DNA of 39,289 nucleotides from Planctomycetota bacterium (GTDB lineage Bacteria > Planctomycetota > Planctomycetia > Gemmatales > Gemmataceae): NCBI GenBank assembly GCA_016873095.1, contig VGYC01000054.1, positions 1 through 39,289 of the forward strand, given 5' to 3'. The position numbers and the translations under genes are program-made. The first letter of the stretch is position 1. Every line of letters starts with the position of its first letter. Of this stretch, positions 328 to 32,615 are shown in pieces. Below the pieces are notes generated by a model that saw only the letters and a list, made by a program, of their open reading frames with translations, was not told where the DNA came from and searched no databases.

Positions 328-1902
328 CTAGGCGTAGGCCAGGCTAGCCACTTCGTTCAGTCGCGGTGCATGCTTGATTGTCTCGGCATGCAGATAAGCA
401 TTTGGTTCGTGGTCGATAGCCCCTGGCGGCAGCCAGCGAAACATCGGCCCGAGGTCCTTGCGGATCATGTCGAGGTAGAATTGTGGCAGCCGCGTCGATT
501 CTTGCTCAAAGAAGGGGGAAAACTCCGGATCGCGGTCGAGTCGGCGGCGGACTTCGCGGTAATAGCGGAGCCGGCCGAAGCCTTCCGTCGAGACCGCGCG
601 CACCAGGTTCATCCAGCGCGGGATGGCGCGGCGCGTGCCCAGGAATCGCTTGAAAATGCTGCGCCAGGAGAACGAGTAGCGCGTCAGGTCGATGACCTGG
701 TCATAGAACTCGGTCCAGCGATAGTTCTTGGGCCGGATATTCATCGCCTGGTTGTTATTGAGGAAATGAAACGGAAAGGGCAGGATGCGTCCGGCCCGCT
801 GATATTCCAGGTTCAGGGGGGCCGCCTGGCCAAAGGCCGACAGCAGCGAGAAGCCAGGAAAGGCGCCGGGCGCCAGGTCGAGGAAACGCTTGGTCAGCTC
901 GAAAGGCTCGGGGCCTTCATCGACGTCCAGGCCGAGCACGAAATTGGTCTGCACATAAGGGACGTAGCGCAAGATGGTGTTGACGTGGTCGGCCACCTGT
1001 TTAACCTTGTCAAGTCCGCGCTTGACGCCGGTCCTGGATTTGTTGCCCATGTCGTACCAGGACTCGATGCCCGGCAACAGCGCCTTGAAGCCGTTGTGCC
1101 GCAGCCGCTTGAGGTGCGGCTCCGTCAATAGCGACAGGCTGCTCTCGGCGATGAAGTCGATCCGGTCCGGCGGCACGGACGCTTCGATGGCATCCATCGT
1201 GTCGCCGAAGCGAACGCCGAAATTCGGATCATGCCAGGCCACGCGCGGCCGGCGGAATTTCGTCAACAAGAAACGTAAGTCTTCGCGGATGACATCGAAA
1301 CCCAGCGGTTGATAGGGGATGGCGGCATCGATGCAGAAACTGCACGTGTACGGGCAGCCCAGGCTGCCGATCATGGGCACGATCTTGATGGTCGGCGCCT
1401 TCTTGAGTGTTTCCTCGATGAACGGCCAGCGCTCGCGCACGCCGGGTAGCGTCTGTGGCTGACGCGCGGCGCTCACGTGCAGGCCCAGCGGCCGATGCGG
1501 CTCGCAATCCGCAAGGATGTCGCGAATGGACTCGCGATCGGTGAAGCCCAGGACGTAGTCGAAGAAGCGCTGGCTGTCTTGCGGATAGCAGCGCGCGTGC
1601 GGCCCGCCCAGAACGGTGACCGCGCCTCGGGCTCGGTAGAAGTTACTCAACGCATAGGCGACGTGGGCCGACTCCGTGAAGCAACCGATGAAAACCAGAT
1701 CGACGTCCGCAGGCAACACCGCGGCGAGGTCCTCAAAGCCGGTGTAGCACACGAGCGACACGTCGTGGCCGGCTTGCCGGCACCACACACCCAGCACCTG
1801 TGGCATGATGCTGGCTAGATTGGCGTTCATCACGCGGGCAAACAAGGCGCGCGTTGGGCCCCTGGCCACCAGATCGACTATGCCGATCCGTAGTTTCTTC
1901 AT
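328..1902 (-). CDS. B12-binding-type radical SAM protein
   Basis: A 524-residue protein that probably carries out a radical S-adenosylmethionine reaction. Residues 1-140 look like a cobalamin-binding Rossmann domain (MKKLRIGIVDLVARGPTRAL start, FIGCFTESAHVAYAL, VTVLGGPHARCYP). The radical SAM cluster motif CxxxCxxC follows as C183, C187 and C190 (GCPYTCSFC). The C-terminal 250 residues have the usual barrel and helical tail. The frame extends 30 codons upstream to 1992, but the MKKLRIG start at 1902 fits the beginning of the B12-binding fold. No SPASM-type cysteine cluster is evident. The substrate cannot be told from sequence; relatives act in methylation, lipid or cofactor modification. It is transcribed alone, divergently from the next gene. 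Confidence 0.8.
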   Translation of the reverse strand: MKKLRIGIVDLVARGPTRALFARVMNANLASIMPQVLGVWCRQAGHDVSLVCYTGFEDLAAVLPADVDLVFIGCFTESAHVAYALSNFYRARGAVTVLGGPHARCYPQDSQRFFDYVLGFTDRESIRDILADCEPHRPLGLHVSAARQPQTLPGVRERWPFIEETLKKAPTIKIVPMIGSLGCPYTCSFCIDAAIPYQPLGFDVIREDLRFLLTKFRRPRVAWHDPNFGVRFGDTMDAIEASVPPDRIDFIAESSLSLLTEPHLKRLRHNGFKALLPGIESWYDMGNKSRTGVKRGLDKVKQVADHVNTILRYVPYVQTNFVLGLDVDEGPEPFELTKRFLDLAPGAFPGFSLLSAFGQAAPLNLEYQRAGRILPFPFHFLNNNQAMNIRPKNYRWTEFYDQVIDLTRYSFSWRSIFKRFLGTRRAIPRWMNLVRAVSTEGFGRLRYYREVRRRLDRDPEFSPFFEQESTRLPQFYLDMIRKDLGPMFRWLPPGAIDHEPNAYLHAETIKHAPRLNEVASLAYA

Positions 1903-2219
1903 GAATAACTGCCACTGGTATTTCGTGGGAATGCGATGTCTCGAATTGTATGTCGCCGGCGCTAGATGGCCAGGGCAGACCGGCAAGTCCACGCGGTCGC
2001 CGTCTTCACAGCGCCCGTCAAGATGGGCAATCTGCCATACCTGACGGTTTGACGCAGTTTCCGTCGCGTCTAGTCACCATTGCGACTCCCGATCTTTAGT
2101 CTTTTTTGGCAAATTCCTGAGTTTTCATCAAGTCGGGCAGCGTTACAACCGATGGTTCTCCTAAAGTCGGTCCATTTTCCGTTCGGGGGGACGGACCGCA
2201 ACGCTTGCGGGGAGGTGCG
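1903..2219. other. Divergent intergenic region
   Basis: This 317-bp gap lies between two genes read outward, so it must hold both promoters. On the minus strand a TACAAT hexamer (plus-strand ATTGTA, about 1946-1951) lies upstream of the radical SAM start, but its -35 is poor. On the plus strand the inverted pair CGGTCC (about 2168-2173) and GGACCG (about 2193-2198) could form a leader hairpin just before the Shine-Dalgarno of the 2220 gene. I see no other gene here. Confidence 0.35.
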
Positions 2220-3818
2220 ATGATGGGATGGGGAGCGTTGACACTGGCCGGCCTGATGGTCGTCACGGGACAGAGCGCGGACCACCTGAATCAGCGCGCC
2301 CAGCGCGTGCCGATCAACATTGAGCCTGGACAGGTCAGGAACATCCGCGAGATGATCCTTTACGTCTCGCCGGACAAGGGCAAGACCTGGCAACAGCACA
2401 GCGTGATTCAGCCCGACAAGGACGGCTTCATTTATCATGCTCCCTCAGATGGCGAATACTGGCTCAAGGTGGCCGTAATCAATCAACAAGGCAAGCAGGA
2501 CCCGGAGAACCCCTACCAGGGGCAGCCCGATCGCATCATGGTCATCGACACCATGAAGCCGATCATCAAACTTGGTACGCCGCAAAAGCAAGGAGACGAG
2601 GTGCTGGTGACCTGGGAGATCCAGGAAGAGCATCCCGATCCAAGCTCACTGAAGCTGGAATATCAGACGGCGACGTCGGCGGGCTGGGTGTCTGTGCCGA
2701 TCAAGCCGGGTCCGACTGGCCAGGCGCGGTTTCGTCCAGGAGCAGGTTCCGTGTCTTTGCGAATGACGTTCAGTGACATGGCCAAGAACACGTCAATGGC
2801 CATGGCGGACCTTGGCGGCGCGTTGGCCCCCGCCAGTTTCGCTCAGGGCGGAAGCAGTTCGAATGATCAAGGCGTAGCGCCACCTTTCGAGCCGCCGTTG
2901 CCGACGCATGGTACCTCGAACGTGGCAGGGCACGTGACGCCACCGCCCACCATGCCGACGCAAGGGCCAAGTCTGCGCACGACTCCGCCACCCATTGACA
3001 GCACTCCTCCCGTCGGAGTTCGGCCGCCGTCCGAACGGGTTCGCACGCAGCCTCCGGGCCAAGCGGCGCCGCCGATCGATACGAACCATCGGCCCGTGGC
3101 GTCCACGGAAACGCCGCCGCCCAGCGTACCGACGACAGGGAGCACCTATTCCAGCCGCAAACCGCTGCCCAGCGTGCAATATGCCAACAATCGAGAACTC
3201 ACGCTCGAATACGAGCTGGCGAAAGTCGGGCCGTCGGGCATCGGCAGCGTGGAGTTATGGTGGACGGCGGACGATGGCAAGGTATGGGAACGGGCCCCGA
3301 GTCCTGACATGAAAGACACCGTGAAGGGCGGGCGCTACACGCGCAACGTGGAGCTGCAGGAAGGCGACGGAGTCTACGGATTCGCGATCGTTGTGAAGAG
3401 CCGGGCTGGAATCGGCAAGCCGGCGCCGCGTTCCGGCGATGTTCCCGAGATGCGCGTCGAACTGGACACGACGCCACCTATCGCCGAGTTGTATGCGCCG
3501 CGCGCCGATCCCAATCACCGCGATTCCATCATGTTGCACTGGGTCGCGAAAGACAAGAACCTGTCGCCAACGCCGATCAGCCTGGAATGGTCGGAGCGCG
3601 TTGACGGACCGTGGCAGCCGATCGCAACCGACATTGCCAACACCGGACAGTATAGCTGGCAGATTCCCTCGGGCATTCCGGTGTCCGTTTACTTCCGCTT
3701 GCGGGTTCGCGATCTGGCCGGCAATGAAAGCGCGCCCGTCACGAACCAGCCGCAACTCGTGGACCTGACCGAGCCGGAAGGACGCCTGGTCAACGTCACG
3801 GTGACGCCGCGGCGCTAG
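2220..3818 (+). CDS. Exported protein with duplicated beta-sandwich-like modules and a Pro/Thr-rich linker
   Basis: About 532 residues. The start is ATG 2220 (or 2223), set by GGGGAGG at 2209-2215; an in-frame TTG at 2205 lies before that site and is unlikely. The N-terminus (MMGWGALTLAGLMVVTGQSA) reads as a signal peptide. Two similar halves flank a proline/threonine-rich linker (roughly residues 205-315). Each half has a segment of the type 'hydrophobic strand, DxGKxW' (YVSPDKGKTWQ; WWTADDGKVWE), then a D-T-x-x-P-I turn (IDTMKPIIKL; LDTTPPIAEL) and an Ig/fibronectin-like stretch ending in SDMAKNTS or RDLAGNES. This suggests a periplasmic or surface adhesive or structural role. I do not recognise a named family and assign no enzymatic function. 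Confidence 0.7.
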   Translation: MMGWGALTLAGLMVVTGQSADHLNQRAQRVPINIEPGQVRNIREMILYVSPDKGKTWQQHSVIQPDKDGFIYHAPSDGEYWLKVAVINQQGKQDPENPYQGQPDRIMVIDTMKPIIKLGTPQKQGDEVLVTWEIQEEHPDPSSLKLEYQTATSAGWVSVPIKPGPTGQARFRPGAGSVSLRMTFSDMAKNTSMAMADLGGALAPASFAQGGSSSNDQGVAPPFEPPLPTHGTSNVAGHVTPPPTMPTQGPSLRTTPPPIDSTPPVGVRPPSERVRTQPPGQAAPPIDTNHRPVASTETPPPSVPTTGSTYSSRKPLPSVQYANNRELTLEYELAKVGPSGIGSVELWWTADDGKVWERAPSPDMKDTVKGGRYTRNVELQEGDGVYGFAIVVKSRAGIGKPAPRSGDVPEMRVELDTTPPIAELYAPRADPNHRDSIMLHWVAKDKNLSPTPISLEWSERVDGPWQPIATDIANTGQYSWQIPSGIPVSVYFRLRVRDLAGNESAPVTNQPQLVDLTEPEGRLVNVTVTPRR

Positions 3819-7227: not shown

Positions 7228-8484
7228 TTACTTCTTGCCGTTGCCGCTCGGCTTGCGCAGCTTTTCCAGCGGGCCCAGCGCCAGAGTCGTCGCCTGGACA
7301 AGTGGGTAGCGGTCGAGCACTTGCCGGATCTTCTTGCGGGTGACGGCCTGAAACGCCTTCAGTTCGTCATCGACGCTGCGATACTCGCCCAGGTAGGTCC
7401 AGGACATGCCGAGGGCCTGCATGCGGCCCATGGGGCGTTCGCTGCCGCGGACCACGCGCGACAGGATCTTGTTCTTCGCCTGCTTCAACTCCTCGTCGCT
7501 GACGCCGTCTTCCTGCACTTGGCGAAGCAACCCCTGGACAATTGAAAGGTTCTTCGCCGTGCGCGCCGGTTCGCAGCTAAACGAGACGTAAAAGGCGCCG
7601 GTGCCTTCGTACTCATGGAAGCTGAGGTCGGCCGACTCGGCGTAGCCGGGATCGACCAGCGCCCAGTGCAACCGGCTACCGGAGTCATCGCCCAGGATCA
7701 TGCTCAGCGTGTCGGCGGCATGCCGGAGCGGCGAGTTGGCGGAGGGCCCTGGAGCGATGAGATAGACATGCTCCTGGGTGACCTTGTCCCTGGTGACGAC
7801 CTTGAAGCGGTCGGCGGCCGGGGCCTCGCGGATGCCCTGCCGCGGAGCAGGCTGTCCCGGCCAGTCGCCGCAATGATCCTCCACCAGCGCCACAAGGTCC
7901 TTGAAGGCAAACCTTCCGGCTGCGGCTACCGTGATGTTCGGGGCCACGTAACGGCGGTCGAAGTATTCCGCCATCTGGTCGCGCTTGAGCGCCGTGATGC
8001 TGTCCGGCGTGCCCAGGATGCTGTTGCCCAGCGGGTGCTCGGCGAAGAACTCCTTCTTGGCGTGATCGTAGGCGGACCAGCCCGGTTGGTCCTCGTACAT
8101 GCCGATCTCCTCGATGATGACCTTCTTCTCCATGTCGAAGTCACCCTCGCGCAGACTCGGGCGAAGGATGTCGGCCAGGATCTCGACAGCCGGCGGCAGG
8201 TACTCCGGCAGCACGGCTGCGTAAAAGACGGTATTCTCCTCGCTGGTGTAAGCGTTGTACTGGGCGCCGATGCGATCGAAATCGCGGTTCACGTCCAGCG
8301 CCGTGCGGTTCGGCGTCCCCTTGAACACCATGTGCTCGAGGAAATGCGTCACGCCTGACACTTCGGGGACTTCATCGCGCGACCCGGTGCGGACGAAAAA
8401 ACCGAGAGCCAGTGACAGTGCCGACGGGCTGGTCTCGGCGATGATGTTGAGGCCGTTCTTCAACCGATGCTGCTGGAAGGGCAT
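7228..8484 (-). CDS. M16 family zinc peptidase, catalytic (HxxEH) subunit
   Basis: A 418-residue processing-peptidase/insulinase family protein. The inverted zinc motif is complete: H47-F-L-E50-H51 (THFLEHMVFKGT), with a downstream glutamate in IIEEIGMYED about 75 residues later, as the family requires. The C-terminal half has the second M16 fold, but the usual R-G-L-x-Y substrate pair is not recognisable: the equivalent region reads VDPGYAESADLSFHEY. AAGGAA lies 6 bases before the ATG. The gene directly upstream encodes a partner with the opposite defect, so the two probably form a heterodimeric protease. There is no signal peptide. Confidence 0.85.
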   Translation of the reverse strand: MPFQQHRLKNGLNIIAETSPSALSLALGFFVRTGSRDEVPEVSGVTHFLEHMVFKGTPNRTALDVNRDFDRIGAQYNAYTSEENTVFYAAVLPEYLPPAVEILADILRPSLREGDFDMEKKVIIEEIGMYEDQPGWSAYDHAKKEFFAEHPLGNSILGTPDSITALKRDQMAEYFDRRYVAPNITVAAAGRFAFKDLVALVEDHCGDWPGQPAPRQGIREAPAADRFKVVTRDKVTQEHVYLIAPGPSANSPLRHAADTLSMILGDDSGSRLHWALVDPGYAESADLSFHEYEGTGAFYVSFSCEPARTAKNLSIVQGLLRQVQEDGVSDEELKQAKNKILSRVVRGSERPMGRMQALGMSWTYLGEYRSVDDELKAFQAVTRKKIRQVLDRYPLVQATTLALGPLEKLRKPSGNGKK

Positions 8485-8565: not shown

Positions 8566-9831
8566 TCATACTGCCGCCTTGCGTCGCGCCACCCCTCGCC
8601 TCGGAAAGCGCAACGGCTTTGGCCCGAGCGTGACCATGGTGAAATCCCCGGGCGGGAAGCGCCGCAGATGGTTGACGATCTTGCGCGGCGTGAGCGCGTC
8701 CACGGCATCCTGAATCTCTTGCAGGCTGCGCACACGCCCCAGGTAGTACCAGTCGGATGCCAGGGCGCCGGCGCGGGCCGAGGTTGATTCCTCCTGCATG
8801 ATCAACGACGACTTCAGGCCGGCCTGTACGCGTTCCACTTCCTCGGCGAAGATGCCGTCTTCGAGCCGGCAGACCTCCGCCAGCGTGACATTGAGAGTCT
8901 CCTGGGCTCGCTCGTTGGTGGTCCCTGCGTAACAGAGGATGCAGGCGAGTTCCTTGTATGTCTGATAGCTGGCCCAGACCGCGTAGCACAGGCCGCGCTT
9001 TTCACGGACCTCGGTGAACAGCCGCGCGCTCATACCGCCAGAAAGCACCTGGACGGCCCCCTGCGCGGAGAAGTAGTCAGGATGACCAATGGGCACGCTG
9101 GGGTAGGCGAGGGCGATCTGGGTCTGTGTGGTTTCCTTGGTAAGGTGAACGCGGCCGCCGCTGGGCTTGCCCAGCTTTATCGGCGTCGCGGGCGGGCCGT
9201 CCCAGTCGCCGAACAGCTTCTCCACTTGGTCGCGCAGCTTCTTCCAGTCAATTTGCCCGGCAACCGACAAGATTGTTCCGTGCGGGCGAAAGACGCTCTG
9301 GTAGTGTCGGCGAACCTTGTCGATGGTCAACGTCTCCAGCCCCTGAAAAGTGCCGCGACGATCGCGGTTGAGTGGCGGCGGAAAATGCCGTTGCCTCAGT
9401 TCGACAATGACCTTGTGCCGCGGCTCGTCGTCCAGGCTTTGCAGGTCTTGCAGGGCCAGAGCTCGGACAGCATCGATTTCCTCGGCTGGCAGCGCCGGTC
9501 GGCGCAGGATATCCGCATAGATCTCCAGGGCGGCCGGCAGGTTATCGGCGAGCGTCGCACCCCAGAATCTCATGTGCAACGAGCCCGCGCTGGTGTCGCG
9601 GTCGAGGCCGAGGTTGTCAAGCGCCAGCGAAAGCTCACGGCTGCTGCGCTTGCCGGCGCCGCGCGTGATCAGTTCCGACAGGACCGATGTCAGACCCAGC
9701 TGCGCTGGTGGATCGTGGGCGTAGCCGGCCGGCACCAGAAAATTCAGGGCGGCCGAGCGAACGTGTGGCATCCGCTCCGCCAGCAACGTCAAGCCATTGG
9801 GGAAGGTGTGGATATGAACGTCCTGTGCCAC
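8566..9831 (-). CDS. M16 family peptidase-like protein, non-catalytic R/Y subunit
   Basis: A 421-residue M16 protein that lacks the zinc site. At the position of HxxEH it reads S49-V-L-S52-E53 (GLTSVLSELITRG). It keeps the C-terminal substrate-binding signature EKRGLCYAVWASY (R and Y, around residues 280-290). By comparison with described two-chain M16 enzymes, it should supply the substrate-holding residues to the catalytic subunit encoded next. Translation starts at a GTG (9829-9831) with AAAGG seven bases upstream. The stop codon lies at the edge of a GTTTTCAGTGTTC-type spacer repeat. Confidence 0.85.
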   Translation of the reverse strand: MAQDVHIHTFPNGLTLLAERMPHVRSAALNFLVPAGYAHDPPAQLGLTSVLSELITRGAGKRSSRELSLALDNLGLDRDTSAGSLHMRFWGATLADNLPAALEIYADILRRPALPAEEIDAVRALALQDLQSLDDEPRHKVIVELRQRHFPPPLNRDRRGTFQGLETLTIDKVRRHYQSVFRPHGTILSVAGQIDWKKLRDQVEKLFGDWDGPPATPIKLGKPSGGRVHLTKETTQTQIALAYPSVPIGHPDYFSAQGAVQVLSGGMSARLFTEVREKRGLCYAVWASYQTYKELACILCYAGTTNERAQETLNVTLAEVCRLEDGIFAEEVERVQAGLKSSLIMQEESTSARAGALASDWYYLGRVRSLQEIQDAVDALTPRKIVNHLRRFPPGDFTMVTLGPKPLRFPRRGVARRKAAV

Positions 9832-13973: not shown

Positions 13974-14357
13974 ATGTCAGATTTCGAACCGGACCGCGAC
14001 GAGACGGCATTTTTGGCGGGATGCGAGGCGGCGCGAGCCGATATCGCAATCGGTCGGCTGATCTACCGCTGGACAGGGCACGCCGGCCACTGGGGACATG
14101 GGATCGTCACCCAGCTTGCGCACCGGTTTGGCGTCGAGGTGAATGAGGGCTTCGGAATCTGCTTTGTCGATACATCGAGTCGCTCATTTGATGAAGGGTA
14201 CAATAACGTCTTGGTCGCCGAAATTGAACGCCGGCACGGGAGCGGCGCATTTGAGTCGCTTTTGAAGGAGTCCAGGTCGCAGTCTGAGGAAAGTCTCTGG
14301 GACGCGAAACAAGCCTGGCAGAATCGTCAGCAGTTGGGCGAGCGGGGCAAGAGCTGA
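13974..14357 (+). CDS. Hypothetical protein framed by inverted repeats
   Basis: A 127-residue protein I do not recognise (MSDFEPDRDETAFLAGCEAA start). It is acidic and mostly helical in look, with an aromatic/His-rich patch RWTGHAGHWGHGIVTQLAHR around 33-52 and a Gln/Ser/Arg-rich tail. There is no signal peptide or membrane helix. The last codons and the TGA (14355-14357) fall inside the right-hand copy of the palindromic repeat, so the end of the reading frame may have been set by insertion of the repeat. It could be a small cassette gene or an ordinary orphan. Confidence 0.55.
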   Translation: MSDFEPDRDETAFLAGCEAARADIAIGRLIYRWTGHAGHWGHGIVTQLAHRFGVEVNEGFGICFVDTSSRSFDEGYNNVLVAEIERRHGSGAFESLLKESRSQSEESLWDAKQAWQNRQQLGERGKS

Positions 14358-14407: not shown

Positions 14408-16111
14408 CTATCCCGCCGCGCCGGTCAGCATCGGCTTGCGGGACAGCCATTCGGCGAGATGATCGAAGAGCGGAGCGCACACGTCCTTGGTGACGGCGCC
14501 CATGGTGGCGATCTGCACGAAGCGACGTTGCGCGAGGTAGGCGCTTTCGCCGCCGATGGCGTAGCCCCACCAGCGGCAGCGGGCGACGAAGGCTTCGGAC
14601 GCCTCGTCTTCCGGCGGCGCGAACGTCGTCACCACTGGACTGGCGCAGTCTTCTCGCGCCAGCGGTAACAGCCCGAGGTCGGCGAGCCGGTCGCGCACCC
14701 AGCCACCCAGCTCCTGGTAGCGGGCGTAAGCGGCTTGCGCTTTCTCCGGGGTCGAGTACTCCTTCAAGGCCGCTTCGAGCGCGAGCAGCGTCGGCGACGG
14801 GAAGGTGTAGCAGGGACCGTCGCTGCGCAGGGCGGCGAGCACGTCGAAGTAGCTGGGAATGCCGCCGCGGTTGACGCGTGCCAATGCCTCGCGATCGGCG
14901 AAGATGATGGCTGCGCCCGCGTAGGCGCCCAGCGACTTGCCGGTCGCGCCCGTGGCCATGTACACCTGGCTTAGATCCAGCGGCACAGCGCCCAGGCTGC
15001 TGATGCAATCTACGCACACGCGGATGTCGCGAGCGCGCGCCGCCGCGACAAGTCCCGGCAGGTCGTTGACCACGCCGGTGCTGGATTCCTGATGGACGCC
15101 CCAGATCCAGCTGCCGGCCGGCTCCTCGTCGAGCGCCGACTCGATCTCGGAGAGGTCCCATGGCTCGCCCCAGGGCCAGGACAGGATGCGCGGCTCGCGT
15201 CCGAAGCGCGTGGCTTGCCGTGCCAGCCTTTCGCCGAACTCGCCGTTGATGAGCAGCACGCCGCGGCCGGTTTTCGTCGCGGCCTGCTCCGCCGCCAGCG
15301 TGGCAGCGACCGTTTCATTGCCCAGCGTGCCGCTGCCGTTCAAGAGGGCGACGTCTCGGCCGCCGACCATCCTGGCCAACGCGCGGCGGACTTCCTGAAA
15401 GCGATGGATGAACTCCGGGCCGCGATGATAGATCGCCGGCTGGTGGAACGCTTGTCGCACTTGTTCGGACGTCGTCACAGGGCCGGGAAGAAGGCAAACG
15501 GGCTCGCGGGCCGACACCTCGGCTGACTGCTCGGGGGGCGACAACTTGTCGAGGTGCGTTTCCCACAACTGCTTGACACGCTGGATTTTCATCGGCAGAT
15601 TTCCGATCGTCAGAACCATGGGCACGAAAGCTGCCTTGCCGCACGGCACCGCCGGTCCCAGAGCCTCGAAGCCCAGTCGGCGGTACAGCTCCAAGCGATC
15701 CTGCACTCCTGATATATAGAGGTGCGTGAATCCGTGGGAGCGGGCGTGCTCGTAAAGCGTCCAGATGAGCCCGAAAAACATCGTGCTGTTGCGCTCGGCC
15801 GGTTCGATGGCCAGCAGGCGGACTTCGAGCGGCCGCGCGCCATTTCGGGTCAGCACTTCCGGATCGTTCAGTCGATCCGCGACCGAGAAGGGCGGTTCGT
15901 GGTGGGCGCTCAGCATTCCGACGACGCGCAGGTCGCGCAGCACGATGAAATAGGCGTTCTTGTGGTGGAACTTATCGACGAGCACGCCGTTGCCCGGATC
16001 GGCGTGCTGCGGAATCTCTTCGACGAAGGTGCGATGGTTGAGGCGGTGGACCTGCTCAAGCTCTTGGTTGGTTTCCGCGCGTTTGAAGAGGTAGTGGCCG
16101 ACGCGAAACAT
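14408..16111 (-). CDS. Fusion of a GNAT-type acyltransferase domain with a class V PLP aminotransferase
   Basis: About 567 residues from ATG 16111, which has GGAGG nine bases upstream. Residues 1-172 resemble FeeM/autoinducer-synthase-like GNAT acyltransferases (VGHYLFKRAETNQELEQVHRL, HRTFVEEIPQH, VDKFHHKNAYFIVL, LYRRLGFEALG). From about 205 a fold-type I aminotransferase begins with LLPGPVTTSEQVRQAF, includes the PLP-contacting aspartate D368 (RVCVDCISSLGA), and has the likely Schiff-base lysine K392 (TGATGKSLGAYAG). Alanine-glyoxylate and 2-aminoethylphosphonate transaminases are the closest group in style. One chain could therefore make an amino compound and acylate it, or the reverse. Both halves look intact. 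It stands alone, convergent with the orphan gene and divergent from tatC. Confidence 0.75.
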   Translation of the reverse strand: MFRVGHYLFKRAETNQELEQVHRLNHRTFVEEIPQHADPGNGVLVDKFHHKNAYFIVLRDLRVVGMLSAHHEPPFSVADRLNDPEVLTRNGARPLEVRLLAIEPAERNSTMFFGLIWTLYEHARSHGFTHLYISGVQDRLELYRRLGFEALGPAVPCGKAAFVPMVLTIGNLPMKIQRVKQLWETHLDKLSPPEQSAEVSAREPVCLLPGPVTTSEQVRQAFHQPAIYHRGPEFIHRFQEVRRALARMVGGRDVALLNGSGTLGNETVAATLAAEQAATKTGRGVLLINGEFGERLARQATRFGREPRILSWPWGEPWDLSEIESALDEEPAGSWIWGVHQESSTGVVNDLPGLVAAARARDIRVCVDCISSLGAVPLDLSQVYMATGATGKSLGAYAGAAIIFADREALARVNRGGIPSYFDVLAALRSDGPCYTFPSPTLLALEAALKEYSTPEKAQAAYARYQELGGWVRDRLADLGLLPLAREDCASPVVTTFAPPEDEASEAFVARCRWWGYAIGGESAYLAQRRFVQIATMGAVTKDVCAPLFDHLAEWLSRKPMLTGAAG

Positions 16112-16260
16112 TCCTGATCCACCTCCGACGCTGCTGCTCGCGAGACTGCTGCTCGCCGCGGCCGCTGACACCGGCGCGCAGGCGCAGCATGTCCTAGGGT
16201 GAGAGGTTACAAACACCTGCCCGTTTTTGCAAGAACCTCAGCCATTTTCCGCGAAGGAAC

Positions 16261-16477: not shown

Positions 16478-16541
16478 GTAACGTGGGTGTTTGGTCCAGC
16501 AATTGCTCCCTCCCAAGCCTGCCCTCCCCGAATCGAGTCTT

Positions 16542-17714
16542 ATGATGGCCGCGACCAACAAGATCATCGATCCGGACGATATGTTTGAAGAAACGCGCAT
16601 GTCTTTCGGTGACCATATCGAGGACTTGCGCAAACATCTCATTCGCGCCGTGGTGGGCTTCGTGATCTGCGTGGCCGCCAGCTTCCTGATCGCCCCCAAG
16701 GTGCTCATCTTCATCGCCAAGCCGGTAGACCGGCAGCTGCAGGGGTACTGGAAGCGCTACTATGCGGAAAGGCACAAGCAACTGCTCAAGCAGGCGCTGC
16801 AGGGAAATGGCAGCACATCCGGCCCGCAGATTCGCATGGACGTGAAGGTACGCAAGAGCGAATTCCGCGATCTGATTGTCGGCATCCTTTCAGACGAGTT
16901 TCCGAAGTTCGAGAAAATGCCGCGCAGGGAGCCCGAACTTGACCTGTTTCCAATGATCGAGGCAACGATTGTTAGCCTCGGCCTCGAGAATGCGGTCAAC
17001 TGGGACGAGGTTCAGCCCTACCGCTGGGTGGAATTGAAAGGGACACGCATCGCCAACCCGCTGGCGTTTGCCCTGCACATGCAGGAAATCATGCAGCAGA
17101 TAAAGCCCCCATCGTTGACCAGCCTGAGCGTGCAGGAGCCGTTCGTCGTTTACTTCAAAGTCAGTCTCCTGACGGGTTTCATTCTTGGCAGCCCGTGGAT
17201 TTTTTATCAGATCTGGTCGTTCATCGCGGCCGGGCTCTATCCGCACGAGAAAAAGTATGTGAACGCCTTCCTGCCGTTCAGCCTCGGCTTGTTCCTCGGC
17301 GGCGTCGTGCTGTGCGAGTTCTTCGTCATGGACAAGGCGGTGGAGGCCCTGTTGTGGTTCAATGAGCTGCTCGACATTGCTCCTGACCTGCGCTTGAACG
17401 AATGGCTCGGCTTCGCCCTGTTCATGCCGCTGGTTTTCGGAATATCGTTCCAGACGCCGCTCGTGATGTTTTTCATCCAGCGCATGGGCATCCTGTCAGT
17501 GGCGACCTTCCGCGAGAAACGGCGCATCTCATGGTTTCTGCTTGCGGTATTTGCCGCCGTCATCACGCCGTCGGTCGATCCGGTCAGCATGAGTTTGCTG
17601 TGGCTGCCGATGGGACTCCTGTACGAACTCGGCATCTGGCTGTGCGTCTACCTGCCGGGCAAACCGCTCCTGGAGTTCGGTTTCGATGAACCGGACGAGC
17701 AGGTCGAGGTGTAG
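16542..17714 (+). CDS. tatC: Sec-independent (Tat) translocase subunit TatC with enlarged first periplasmic loop
   Basis: A 390-residue TatC, well above the family's usual 240-260. TatC binds twin-arginine signal peptides in the inner membrane. The cytoplasmic N-terminal motif is present (HIEDLRKHL, residues 25-33), then TM1 (about 34-58). The canonical QEPFVVYFKVSLLTGFILG start of TM2 comes only at 198, followed by SPWIFYQIWSFIAAGLYPHEKK, the later helices, and ITPSVDPVSM near 341-350. The stretch 60-197 is about 100 residues longer than normal, rich in Lys/Glu/Arg, and must face the periplasm. ATG 16542 or 16545 is the likely start. No tatA or tatB lies in the window. Confidence 0.88.
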   Translation: MMAATNKIIDPDDMFEETRMSFGDHIEDLRKHLIRAVVGFVICVAASFLIAPKVLIFIAKPVDRQLQGYWKRYYAERHKQLLKQALQGNGSTSGPQIRMDVKVRKSEFRDLIVGILSDEFPKFEKMPRREPELDLFPMIEATIVSLGLENAVNWDEVQPYRWVELKGTRIANPLAFALHMQEIMQQIKPPSLTSLSVQEPFVVYFKVSLLTGFILGSPWIFYQIWSFIAAGLYPHEKKYVNAFLPFSLGLFLGGVVLCEFFVMDKAVEALLWFNELLDIAPDLRLNEWLGFALFMPLVFGISFQTPLVMFFIQRMGILSVATFREKRRISWFLLAVFAAVITPSVDPVSMSLLWLPMGLLYELGIWLCVYLPGKPLLEFGFDEPDEQVEV

Positions 17715-29009: not shown

Positions 29010-32000
29010 TCAATTCTTGCCGGGCTTCGGCGCTTTCTTGAATTCGGCAGCCGTCATCGAGCGGACACTGGCATCGGCCATGAGGACCATGCCGCCGCGC
29101 GTTGCGGCGTCCTTCTCGTGTCCCAGCACCGTATTGGACGTGCCCTTCGGGAGCTTGAGAAGCTGCACGTTCCAGTAGACCTTGATGTCGCCCTTCTTGA
29201 TCGCGTCGGTGATCTTGGCGTCGTTCTCGTAGAACGGCTCCAAATCCTCGACCTTGCCGGGCGCCTTCTTCTTGACATCGATACAACTGTGGTAGGCCAG
29301 GCCGATCTGCTTGAGCTGATTGGTGAGCAGCTGCTTCTGAGCGGCGTTCTGCGCGGGAACCTTGGCGCCTTCTTTGGCGGCGGGCAGCGACTCCTTCTTC
29401 GCCGCCGGCGCTGCGGCTTCCTTTTGGTCGGCTTCTTGCTTGTCGGCCGGTTCCAGATCCGGTTCCTTGCCCGTCTTGGCGGCGGTCTTGGGCGGCACCA
29501 GCGGCGCCCAGTCATCGATGCCGGCGGGGGCGGCGGCCTTCACTGCGCACATCGCCTTGAAGACATCGTCGCTGATCTTGGCGTCGATGAAGCGGACGGA
29601 TCCGTCACTCATGATGGCAAACGTGCCGCGCTTGCTCTTGTGAGTGATGTCGTTGCCGTCGCGATCCTTGGTCAGGACAAAGGGGGCGATGGAGTTGGTC
29701 TCCGGCACGCCGCGGAGAGTGCTGCCGCCGCCGGCGATCCAGGGCGTGACGCCGACCGGACCGTCGTGCGGTGCTTGAATGAGTAGGATGGTGTTGGCAA
29801 GACCGCGACTGTCCTTGACGACGCGCAGGGCCTGGGAGCCATCGTAACCGAACACGCCGCGCTTGGCATCGAGGCTGGGATCGCTGGGCGAATAGCTGGC
29901 GGCGTCAAGGCCGATGCCGGCGATGCCGACAAAGTGCGTGGCTGCCGCTTCCATGGGCAATCCCGTCTGCCGCACGCGGAACGAGCTGGAAGGATACATC
30001 GGATCGAGAAACTCAGGGACGATGGTGCCGGCTGCCAGCCAGTTGGCCGGGTCGCGCCACGACCTGTCGAAGTTGATTCGGTTGTAGAGCTGCTCCTGAC
30101 CCAGGTATGGGAGCAGGCCGGCCATCCAGCTCACGCGCTGGCCGGGCTCGCGCGCCAGGCGATTGCTGGTGTCTTGGCGCTTGAAGGCTCCCGGCGGATA
30201 CATCCCCGGCGGCAGGCCGCGATCCGGCAAGCCCTGCTCGGGCAGCAGAAATGCCGCCTTGCCCAGGCCATGTCGCGACGACGTGCCCGCTGCCAGGTTC
30301 AGCTCGTTGCGTAAACCAAGAAGCATCAGCGATGCGGCATTGGCCAGGTTCGTGAAGCGCGCCTGATCGAGTACCAGATCGACCGTCATGCGCACCTGCT
30401 CGGCGCGACGGCCGACGCGGATGCGCGACGTTTTCGGATTGGCGTCGTCACTGGGCTGCGTCTTGGGTTGCTGGGGTTGCTTGGGTTGCTGGGGCACGAT
30501 CCCTCCCCCATTGGGAAACTGGCCGGGAATGCCGGGCTGACCGCCGGTTGCCGGCCCCTTCTTCGGCTGGGGCGGAACCTCATCGACCGGTAACTCCACC
30601 TTGATCCCCAGTAGCTGGCCGACAAAGTTTGCCAGAACCGGTGCTCCATGGTCGTAGAGTTCATCCTGGATCGCGATCGCGTCGTTGTTGCTGGCGCATG
30701 CCAGCTGATTCATCAACCGGTAGGCGTTGTCTCGCTGCAGGAGGGATGCGCCGAGATGACGAATCTGCGGGCCGCGCTTGGTCAGCAGATTGGTCACATC
30801 CCAGAGCTGGCGATACTGCCACAAGGCCTGATCCTGGAATTCAGGGTCGCGCACGGAAAGCCGGGCCGCGGTCATGTCGGTCGCCATGCTGAAGATCAGC
30901 TCGTCGCGCGAATCGACTGGCTTCTGCTCCACGCTGTCGAGCATTGCCTTCAAGTGCGGGCTGATCGTCATGTAGGTGTTGACGGGAACAACCACGATAG
31001 GCCGGTTGTCGGGAGGCGTGCCTCCGGGCGTGGTCCCGGGGTTCGTGCCAGGATTCGTTCCGGGTTGGCCGCCCTTGCCGGGGAAGCCGCCTCCAGGACT
31101 ACCCGGAAAACCTGGTCCCTTACCGGGGAAACCAGGGCCGCCCTTGCCAGGGAAACCGCCCGGCGGTTGGCCGCCGCCCGGAAATCCGCCTGGAGGCTGT
31201 GCGCCGCCGGGAAATCCACCGGGGGGTTGTGCACCTCCTGCGGGCGGCTGAAAACCGCCGGGAACCTGGTCATTGAATGTCTTGGGTGAGCCGGCCGGCG
31301 CTGCGCCAGGAGGCACCGCACCTGGCGGCACCACGCCTGGAGGCGTCGTTCCTGGCTGTTTCGGGGTTGTCCCCGGGGGATTGAAGCCACCAGGCGGAAA
31401 TGCCGGCGGAGTTGTTCCCGGCGGAGTCGCTCCAGGGGGACTTGTTCCAGGTGGAAATGCGGGCGGTGTCGTACCGGGAGGCAGCTGCGTTCCCGACTTC
31501 GGATCCGGCGTCGGCTGGGTCGGCGCCTCGCTCTGGTGCTTGAACTTGCCCTCGGCCTCGAGGAAAGCCATCATCGGCACTTGATCGGCAAAGATGACCG
31601 TGTTCGGATTGTGCAAGCGCACCAGGAACGGCTGTGTCTTGGCACGCTCCCGATAGTTGCGCAAGAAGTGTGGCGCGCCAAACGAGAACTGTCCCAGCTG
31701 CTCCAGGTACGCTTCCTGCTTGCGCGAGCCTTGCCGGTAATACTTCTGGTTCTTGACCGGATCGGGAGACTCGCTCAAGCCAAGCGCGTTCACGAGCGCC
31801 TTTTCATTCACGGGCCGGCGCGAATGGACCACCGTGAAGGACCAGGATGGTTCGGTGAAGCGCTCCGCGCGAATCACGTCGTCCACCGACTGAACGTCCA
31901 GCCCGAGACGAGCATTGAGGTCGCTCTCCACGAGCGCGCCCGGCGCGAAGGCCAGCTTGCCAATCGGGTTGGCGGCGCCGAACACGTTCTTGAAGAAAAC

Positions 32001-32615
32001 ATGAATGACGTGCTCGGAGCTGGGCGGCAGCAGATTGGTGAGTTCCGGCCCGGCCGATGCGAAATTCTCCGGGAACGGATCGACAGGCCGTTCGTTTCCG
32101 TCCTGTTTGGGATCCTTCTTGTCTTGCTTGCCCTTGGGGTCGGGCGACGTGCCGGGCAGTTGCGTGTTGCCTTGCGGATTTGGCTTGAAAACGACCGCGT
32201 CGTTCTTCTTGCCGCCGAGGATGAGGAAACCCGCGACGGCGAGCACGGCCAGGCCGACAGCGCCAAGTCCCAGGCCCAGGACAAGCTTCTTGGAGCCGGC
32301 TGCGTCCTTCTTCTTGGCTGGCTTTTCGCTCGCCTCGTCGCCGGCATCTTCGTCGGTATCGCGCCCCTTGGCAGACTTGCCGTTCTTGCTCGGAGGTTTC
32401 GCTTTCTTGGTCAGCGCCGCCAGTGCCGCCTCGTCCATCTCCGGCGCGTCTTCCTCCTCCGGCGCCGCGGACTCGGGTTCCCCAGGTTCTTCGACGACGA
32501 AGCGGTACTTGCACTTGGGGCAATCGATCTTCTTGCCCACCAGGCTCGGGCTCTTGATTGGCACCTGTGCCTCGCAACTCGGGCACGCCTGCTTGAATGC
32601 AACCTTTACCGCCAT
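29010..32615 (-). CDS. Large DUF1559-type membrane protein with N-terminal zinc ribbon and Pro/Gly-rich region
   Basis: A 1201-residue protein. In order: a zinc ribbon (C11, C14, C32, C35), an acidic then Lys-rich cytoplasmic stretch, one membrane helix (about 111-134), a globular region of about 200 residues, a long Pro/Gly/Thr-rich low-complexity region (about 365-540), another helical region, and a DUF1559-type domain (GQRVSWMAGLLPYLGQEQLYN; HFVGIAGIG; TILLIQAPHDGPVGVTPW; GTFAIMSDGSVRFI). The last 150 residues repeat a DUF1559-like ending (TVLGHEKDAATRGGMVLMAD, then ASVRSM). GGAGAGG precedes the ATG at 32615. DUF1559 is typical of planctomycetes and linked with pseudopilin-like surface proteins. 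The cell-surface role is inference. Confidence 0.8.
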   Translation of the reverse strand: MAVKVAFKQACPSCEAQVPIKSPSLVGKKIDCPKCKYRFVVEEPGEPESAAPEEEDAPEMDEAALAALTKKAKPPSKNGKSAKGRDTDEDAGDEASEKPAKKKDAAGSKKLVLGLGLGAVGLAVLAVAGFLILGGKKNDAVVFKPNPQGNTQLPGTSPDPKGKQDKKDPKQDGNERPVDPFPENFASAGPELTNLLPPSSEHVIHVFFKNVFGAANPIGKLAFAPGALVESDLNARLGLDVQSVDDVIRAERFTEPSWSFTVVHSRRPVNEKALVNALGLSESPDPVKNQKYYRQGSRKQEAYLEQLGQFSFGAPHFLRNYRERAKTQPFLVRLHNPNTVIFADQVPMMAFLEAEGKFKHQSEAPTQPTPDPKSGTQLPPGTTPPAFPPGTSPPGATPPGTTPPAFPPGGFNPPGTTPKQPGTTPPGVVPPGAVPPGAAPAGSPKTFNDQVPGGFQPPAGGAQPPGGFPGGAQPPGGFPGGGQPPGGFPGKGGPGFPGKGPGFPGSPGGGFPGKGGQPGTNPGTNPGTTPGGTPPDNRPIVVVPVNTYMTISPHLKAMLDSVEQKPVDSRDELIFSMATDMTAARLSVRDPEFQDQALWQYRQLWDVTNLLTKRGPQIRHLGASLLQRDNAYRLMNQLACASNNDAIAIQDELYDHGAPVLANFVGQLLGIKVELPVDEVPPQPKKGPATGGQPGIPGQFPNGGGIVPQQPKQPQQPKTQPSDDANPKTSRIRVGRRAEQVRMTVDLVLDQARFTNLANAASLMLLGLRNELNLAAGTSSRHGLGKAAFLLPEQGLPDRGLPPGMYPPGAFKRQDTSNRLAREPGQRVSWMAGLLPYLGQEQLYNRINFDRSWRDPANWLAAGTIVPEFLDPMYPSSSFRVRQTGLPMEAAATHFVGIAGIGLDAASYSPSDPSLDAKRGVFGYDGSQALRVVKDSRGLANTILLIQAPHDGPVGVTPWIAGGGSTLRGVPETNSIAPFVLTKDRDGNDITHKSKRGTFAIMSDGSVRFIDAKISDDVFKAMCAVKAAAPAGIDDWAPLVPPKTAAKTGKEPDLEPADKQEADQKEAAAPAAKKESLPAAKEGAKVPAQNAAQKQLLTNQLKQIGLAYHSCIDVKKKAPGKVEDLEPFYENDAKITDAIKKGDIKVYWNVQLLKLPKGTSNTVLGHEKDAATRGGMVLMADASVRSMTAAEFKKAPKPGKN

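Follow-up and report, generated by a model that had tools for sequence, protein, structure and literature searches.

Does a long open reading frame of this DNA encode a genuine two-domain enzyme, and what might such an enzyme make? The window, by which we mean the whole stretch of 39,289 nucleotides that was analysed, carries on its minus strand (14408..16111) a single uninterrupted frame of 567 codons plus stop, in which a GNAT N-acyltransferase domain is joined to a class V PLP domain. The frame stays open upstream as far as 16216; translation probably starts from the ATG at 16111, since it is preceded at a distance of 10 nt by GGAGG, a probable ribosome-binding site (16122..16126, minus strand), and since M(F/L)xVGxY stands at the start of the relatives as well. 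The gene is solitary in the window, with a convergent gene at 13974-14357 and, beyond its start, a divergent gene for TatC. In that TatC gene (16491-17714, plus strand) a 208-position Pfam match is spread across 333 residues, indicating a large insertion. Elsewhere in the window we observed a tandem pair of M16-type peptidase genes (7228-8484 and 8566-9831, minus strand) and a 1201-residue protein (29010-32615, minus strand) in which DUF1559 (PF07596) is matched at residues 805-1011 only, distant from the N-terminus.

Relatives were sought by scanning one genome per species for the motifs TFV[EGD]EIPQ and VD[KR]FH[HDK][KE]N, a choice that inflates invariance at those motifs; at least 515 were confirmed and the 80 most similar to the window protein were kept, from which 77 sequences could be aligned and 78 loci used for gene neighborhoods. 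Among these best 80 of at least 515, the fused architecture could be aligned from end to end at 33-70% identity in about a dozen bacterial phyla, including Planctomycetota, Verrucomicrobiota, Bacillota, Thermodesulfobacteriota, Chloroflexota, Acidobacteriota, Gemmatimonadota, Myxococcota and Sumerlaeota. The window's own genome has a single copy, and 8 of 36 other genomes of the same family have the fusion, a count that includes two truncated where their contigs stop and one with the halves in different frames. It is also present on a plasmid of Cytobacillus spongiae (690-kb record). As the frame is intact and conserved, we rejected an annotation artefact, and conservation of the whole architecture at such identities across phyla likewise excluded a chance fusion peculiar to this genome. 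The joining of both activities in one protein, as claimed in the original prediction, is therefore real. That prediction had allowed that relatives might encode the halves as separate, unlinked genes; where we found separate genes, in three Planctomyces-like loci (L042, L043 and L044), they were adjacent and in the first two overlapped by 4 bp, which provides independent support for a joint function. In one further locus (L011 of genome G033, about 1501-3250) the halves lie side by side in different frames, representing either a natural split or a frameshift. The absence of a standard named family with this architecture also held: no NCBIfam model was passed by the window protein in the profile search, and the open-licence literature yielded nothing relevant on this architecture or on PlsY-aminotransferase clusters. 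Singly the domains are of known kinds; their combination, and the linkage to PlsY described below, are undescribed as far as these tools show. We concluded that the fusion family is real, conserved and unnamed in the libraries that we searched.

An AlphaFold2 model of the fusion gave two domains (mean pLDDT 92.2) connected by a flexible linker at about residues 189-202 (15506..15547, minus strand), which has low pLDDT and varies in length among the relatives. The GNAT domain occupies residues 1-188 (15548..16111, minus strand) and also folded confidently by itself (mean pLDDT 89.8). Its residues 21-167 match the Pfam family FeeM (PF21926) with 47.2 bits against a gathering cut-off of 27, and 75 of the 77 aligned relatives (from the best 80 of at least 515) match this family at E <= 0.001. 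FeeM and OlsB-like GNATs transfer acyl chains from acyl-ACP onto amino groups, and PF13444 is a family of aminolipid N-acyltransferases (PMC11631085); the latter is matched by 66 of the same 77 at E <= 0.001, while the window protein reaches 16.9 bits against a gathering score of 22.4. When the lone GNAT model was used for a structure search, the nearest folds were the acylhomoserine lactone (AHL) synthases BjaI (Z 19.3, rmsd 2.3, 176 aligned) and RpaI (Z 19.2), followed by FeeM (Z 18.9) and LasI (Z 18.3), bearing out the predicted autoinducer-synthase/FeeM-like character of this domain. Neither the window protein, with matches taken up to E <= 1, nor any of the 77 relatives matched an autoinducer synthase model of Pfam. 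The suspicion that this half might lack an acyl-donor site was not borne out, as E96, R98 and R107 on the acyl-donor side are invariant in all 77 aligned sequences of the best 80; by likeness to AHL synthases, the E96-x-R98 pair (15818..15826, minus strand) would lie on the strand that runs up to the acyl-donor loop. A short-chain acetyltransferase, serving detoxification or regulating the PLP half and unconnected with lipids, could account for the matches of generic GNAT models and for a fold common to many acetyltransferases. We consider this quite improbable, because AHL synthases and FeeM mostly outrank ordinary acetyltransferases in structural similarity (Z 17.5-19.3 versus mostly 14-17) and because PlsY is linked to the fusion across phyla.

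The C-terminal half (residues 203-560; 14432..15505, minus strand) is, by its modelled structure, a class V PLP enzyme of the AGT/PhnW fold. Residues 220-412 match Pfam Aminotran_5 with 36.8 bits (cut-off 21.5), and the structure search returned top matches with Z 42-46, among them PH1308 (Z 45.9) and PhnW (Z about 43). D368 (15008..15010, minus strand), by homology the partner of the PLP pyridine nitrogen, and K392 (14936..14938, minus strand), by homology the Schiff-base lysine, are where the original prediction placed them and are invariant in the 77 aligned members of the best 80 of at least 515. The term aminotransferase in that prediction stood only in part: the fold and the PLP residues agree with it, but the substrate site is altered. 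Enzymes of the AGT and PhnW type hold the carboxylate or phosphonate of the substrate with a conserved arginine. In human AGT this is Arg360, which forms a salt bridge with the substrate carboxylate (PMC9340776); its counterpart here is Q533 (14513..14515, minus strand), which is glutamine in all 77 aligned fusions of the best 80, whereas the equivalent residue is arginine in all five solved templates aligned and in 19 of the 20 free-standing homologues in which the site could be read. From this uniform replacement we propose that the PLP pocket of the fusion has probably been re-purposed, and a standard transamination of amino acids should not be taken for granted. In another locus we noted a class V PLP protein that stands alone (L139, 1237-2646, minus strand) and has equivalents of both Q533 and N265; its convergent neighbor (886-1707, plus strand) resembles a CDP-alcohol phosphatidyltransferase, which is once more a lipid setting.

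The altered pocket raises the alternative that the PLP half is another kind of class V enzyme, of the lyase, racemase or decarboxylase type, whose amino substrate is acylated by the GNAT half. Besides the loss of the carboxylate arginine, the position of the window protein far under the cut-offs of the aminotransferase equivalog models is in keeping with this idea; nevertheless, the nearest models and folds are aminotransferases, and the H229-R230 pair, invariant in the aligned fusions of the best 80 and present in AGT-type homologues too, could bind a carboxylate instead. On balance we regard a non-aminotransferase as unlikely, while keeping it in view. Formation or acylation of 2-aminoethylphosphonate (AEP) by the fusion, acting as a phosphonolipid enzyme, was suggested by the top NCBIfam match, PhnW-AepZ (TIGR03301), with an E value of 2.5e-50. 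However, the score of this match was 171.9 bits against an equivalog cut-off of 360.8, Q533 stands where the substrate-site arginine would be, and a search for PEP mutase gave no match above the strict cut-off in any of 15 fusion-bearing genomes; matches below it occurred in the E. coli and B. subtilis controls too. We therefore judged a phosphonate route to be very improbable.

To what the domains indicate, the gene neighborhoods add a connection with lipids. Neighboring genes were called by a simple longest-ORF script, and in 52 of 78 loci (from the best 80 of at least 515) a gene of the PlsY family (PF02660) lies directly upstream of the fusion on the same strand, in several loci abutting it or overlapping it by 4 bp. 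On the gene tree the PlsY-linked fusions come from nine phyla or more, and the upstream PlsY retains the PlsY motifs GSG..GA.N and GGKG. Long upstream frames in some loci raised the possibility of PlsY fused to the enzyme, which we rejected since PlsY is read there in another frame that overlaps the long one. With one or two PlsY genes among thousands, the recurrence of one beside the fusion in this many phyla is not a matter of chance. When PlsY copies were counted in 14 fusion-bearing genomes, all 10 genomes with PlsY adjoining the fusion had 2-5 PlsY genes each, those with unlinked fusions at L036, L039 and L105 had one each, and that of L047 gave no PlsY match. Further lipid-related genes recur nearby: among the best 80, an LplT-Aas-type cluster of MFS, PlsC and AMP-binding protein in seven loci, an LTA-synthase-like sulfatase near the fusion in four Bacilli, and TMEM164. 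In Pfam tallies of the neighbors of these best 80 of at least 515, no regulator or third invariant partner was common to most loci. Two other features were noted in Dadabacteria-type genomes: one or two Yip1-domain membrane proteins downstream of the fusion at L045, L047 and L088, and a DCC1-like thiol oxidoreductase preceding it at L045 and L047.

These neighborhoods bear on whether the product is a signal or a lipid, both of which had been put forward. Production of a diffusible N-acyl signal, or of an antibiotic-like N-acyl amide, in place of a membrane lipid would fit the nearness of the GNAT fold to AHL synthases and FeeM, and also the absence of a linked second acyltransferase from the window's own clade. 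On the other hand, it is acyltransferases and not regulators that recur beside the fusion, and PlsY normally acylates glycerol-3-phosphate in the synthesis of membrane lipids. The presence of a PlsY-type acyltransferase upstream in two-thirds of the loci, together with the recurring lipid genes, led us to favor lipid synthesis; a lipid or N-acyl amide enzyme is more likely than a signal synthase, which we think rather unlikely.

For the window itself the argument is weaker. On the gene tree the window and eight other Planctomycetota form a clade that a long branch with full support separates from the other sequences. In those of its loci long enough to judge (one contig was too short) no PlsY adjoins the fusion, and in the window there is none upstream, the only PlsY of the genome being on another contig. 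Because of this lack of a linked second PlsY, the lipid interpretation reaches the window by homology only. Roughly a dozen positions also set the clade apart from the other relatives, among them H70 and P73 of the GNAT domain in place of R70 and R73, and these differences suggest that its acceptor and product may not be the same as those of the other relatives.

We propose, with a probability of about 50%, that the fusion is a bifunctional enzyme whose product, an N-acyl amide, serves lipid synthesis. Its PLP half would form or process a small amino compound and hand the amine to the GNAT half, which, to judge from its fold and family, would join to the nitrogen a fatty-acyl chain from acyl-ACP or acyl-CoA. 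The PlsY encoded upstream in most relatives, a dedicated second one (PlsY2), would then acylate a hydroxyl to give a two-chain lipid; in the window's clade the end product may be a single-chain N-acyl amide, or may be finished by an unlinked enzyme. The two-step transamination-acylation route originally suggested is plausible, and we infer each of its chemical steps, substrates and product from the domains and their linkage. Two considerations count against the proposal. Owing to Q533, a usual amino-acid donor may not be accepted by the PLP half; and the known aminolipid O-acyltransferases are PlsC-like (PF01553) or belong to PF19576 (PMC11631085), not to the PlsY family, so that the route would be a variant. 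More tentatively, and with distinctly less assurance, the fusion and PlsY2 might constitute an undescribed pathway, present in about a dozen phyla, to a membrane lipid with two acyl chains, one attached through an amide and the other through an ester; a candidate product is an N-acyl phosphatidic acid analogue built on an aminated triose phosphate. If the proposal is correct, a widespread unnamed enzyme family would be linked to a lipid or N-acyl amide outside the current bacterial lipid catalogue, and PlsY2 plus the fusion would form a short gene set, tractable in culturable Bacilli and Geomonas, for finding the product. The family is also of value for its class V PLP pocket, where every aligned member has glutamine at the site of the substrate arginine.

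Comparison with known systems places the fusion between several of them. The GNAT half resembles FeeM (PDB 2G0B) both in passing its Pfam cut-off and in fold, but FeeM stands alone, whereas the domain here is fused to a PLP enzyme and, in relatives, linked to PlsY. AHL synthases (LasI, BjaI and RpaI) are its nearest solved folds and have a similar E-x-R and acyl-donor loop; the fusion differs in having a PLP domain attached and no AHL synthase Pfam match, and nothing suggests SAM as a substrate. With OlsB/OlsA, OlsF and GlsB it shares the pairing of an N-acyltransferase with an O-acyltransferase, and most relatives share PF13444; in contrast, its partner is PlsY and not PlsC/OlsA, a PLP domain has been added, and the window protein itself falls short of the PF13444 score. 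The C-terminal half has the fold and PLP residues of PhnW/AepZ and AGT1 (Z 41-43), but with Q533 in place of the substrate arginine and scores far under the equivalog cut-offs. Finally, fusion of an AGT-fold domain to another enzyme has precedents in PntC-AEPT (6PD1) and in the MetRS-AGAT of Mycoplasma penetrans (9OS7), and aminotransferase activity has been demonstrated for the appended domain of the latter (PMC7694997, PMC13215547); in those proteins the partner is a nucleotidyltransferase or MetRS, whereas here it is a GNAT acyltransferase.
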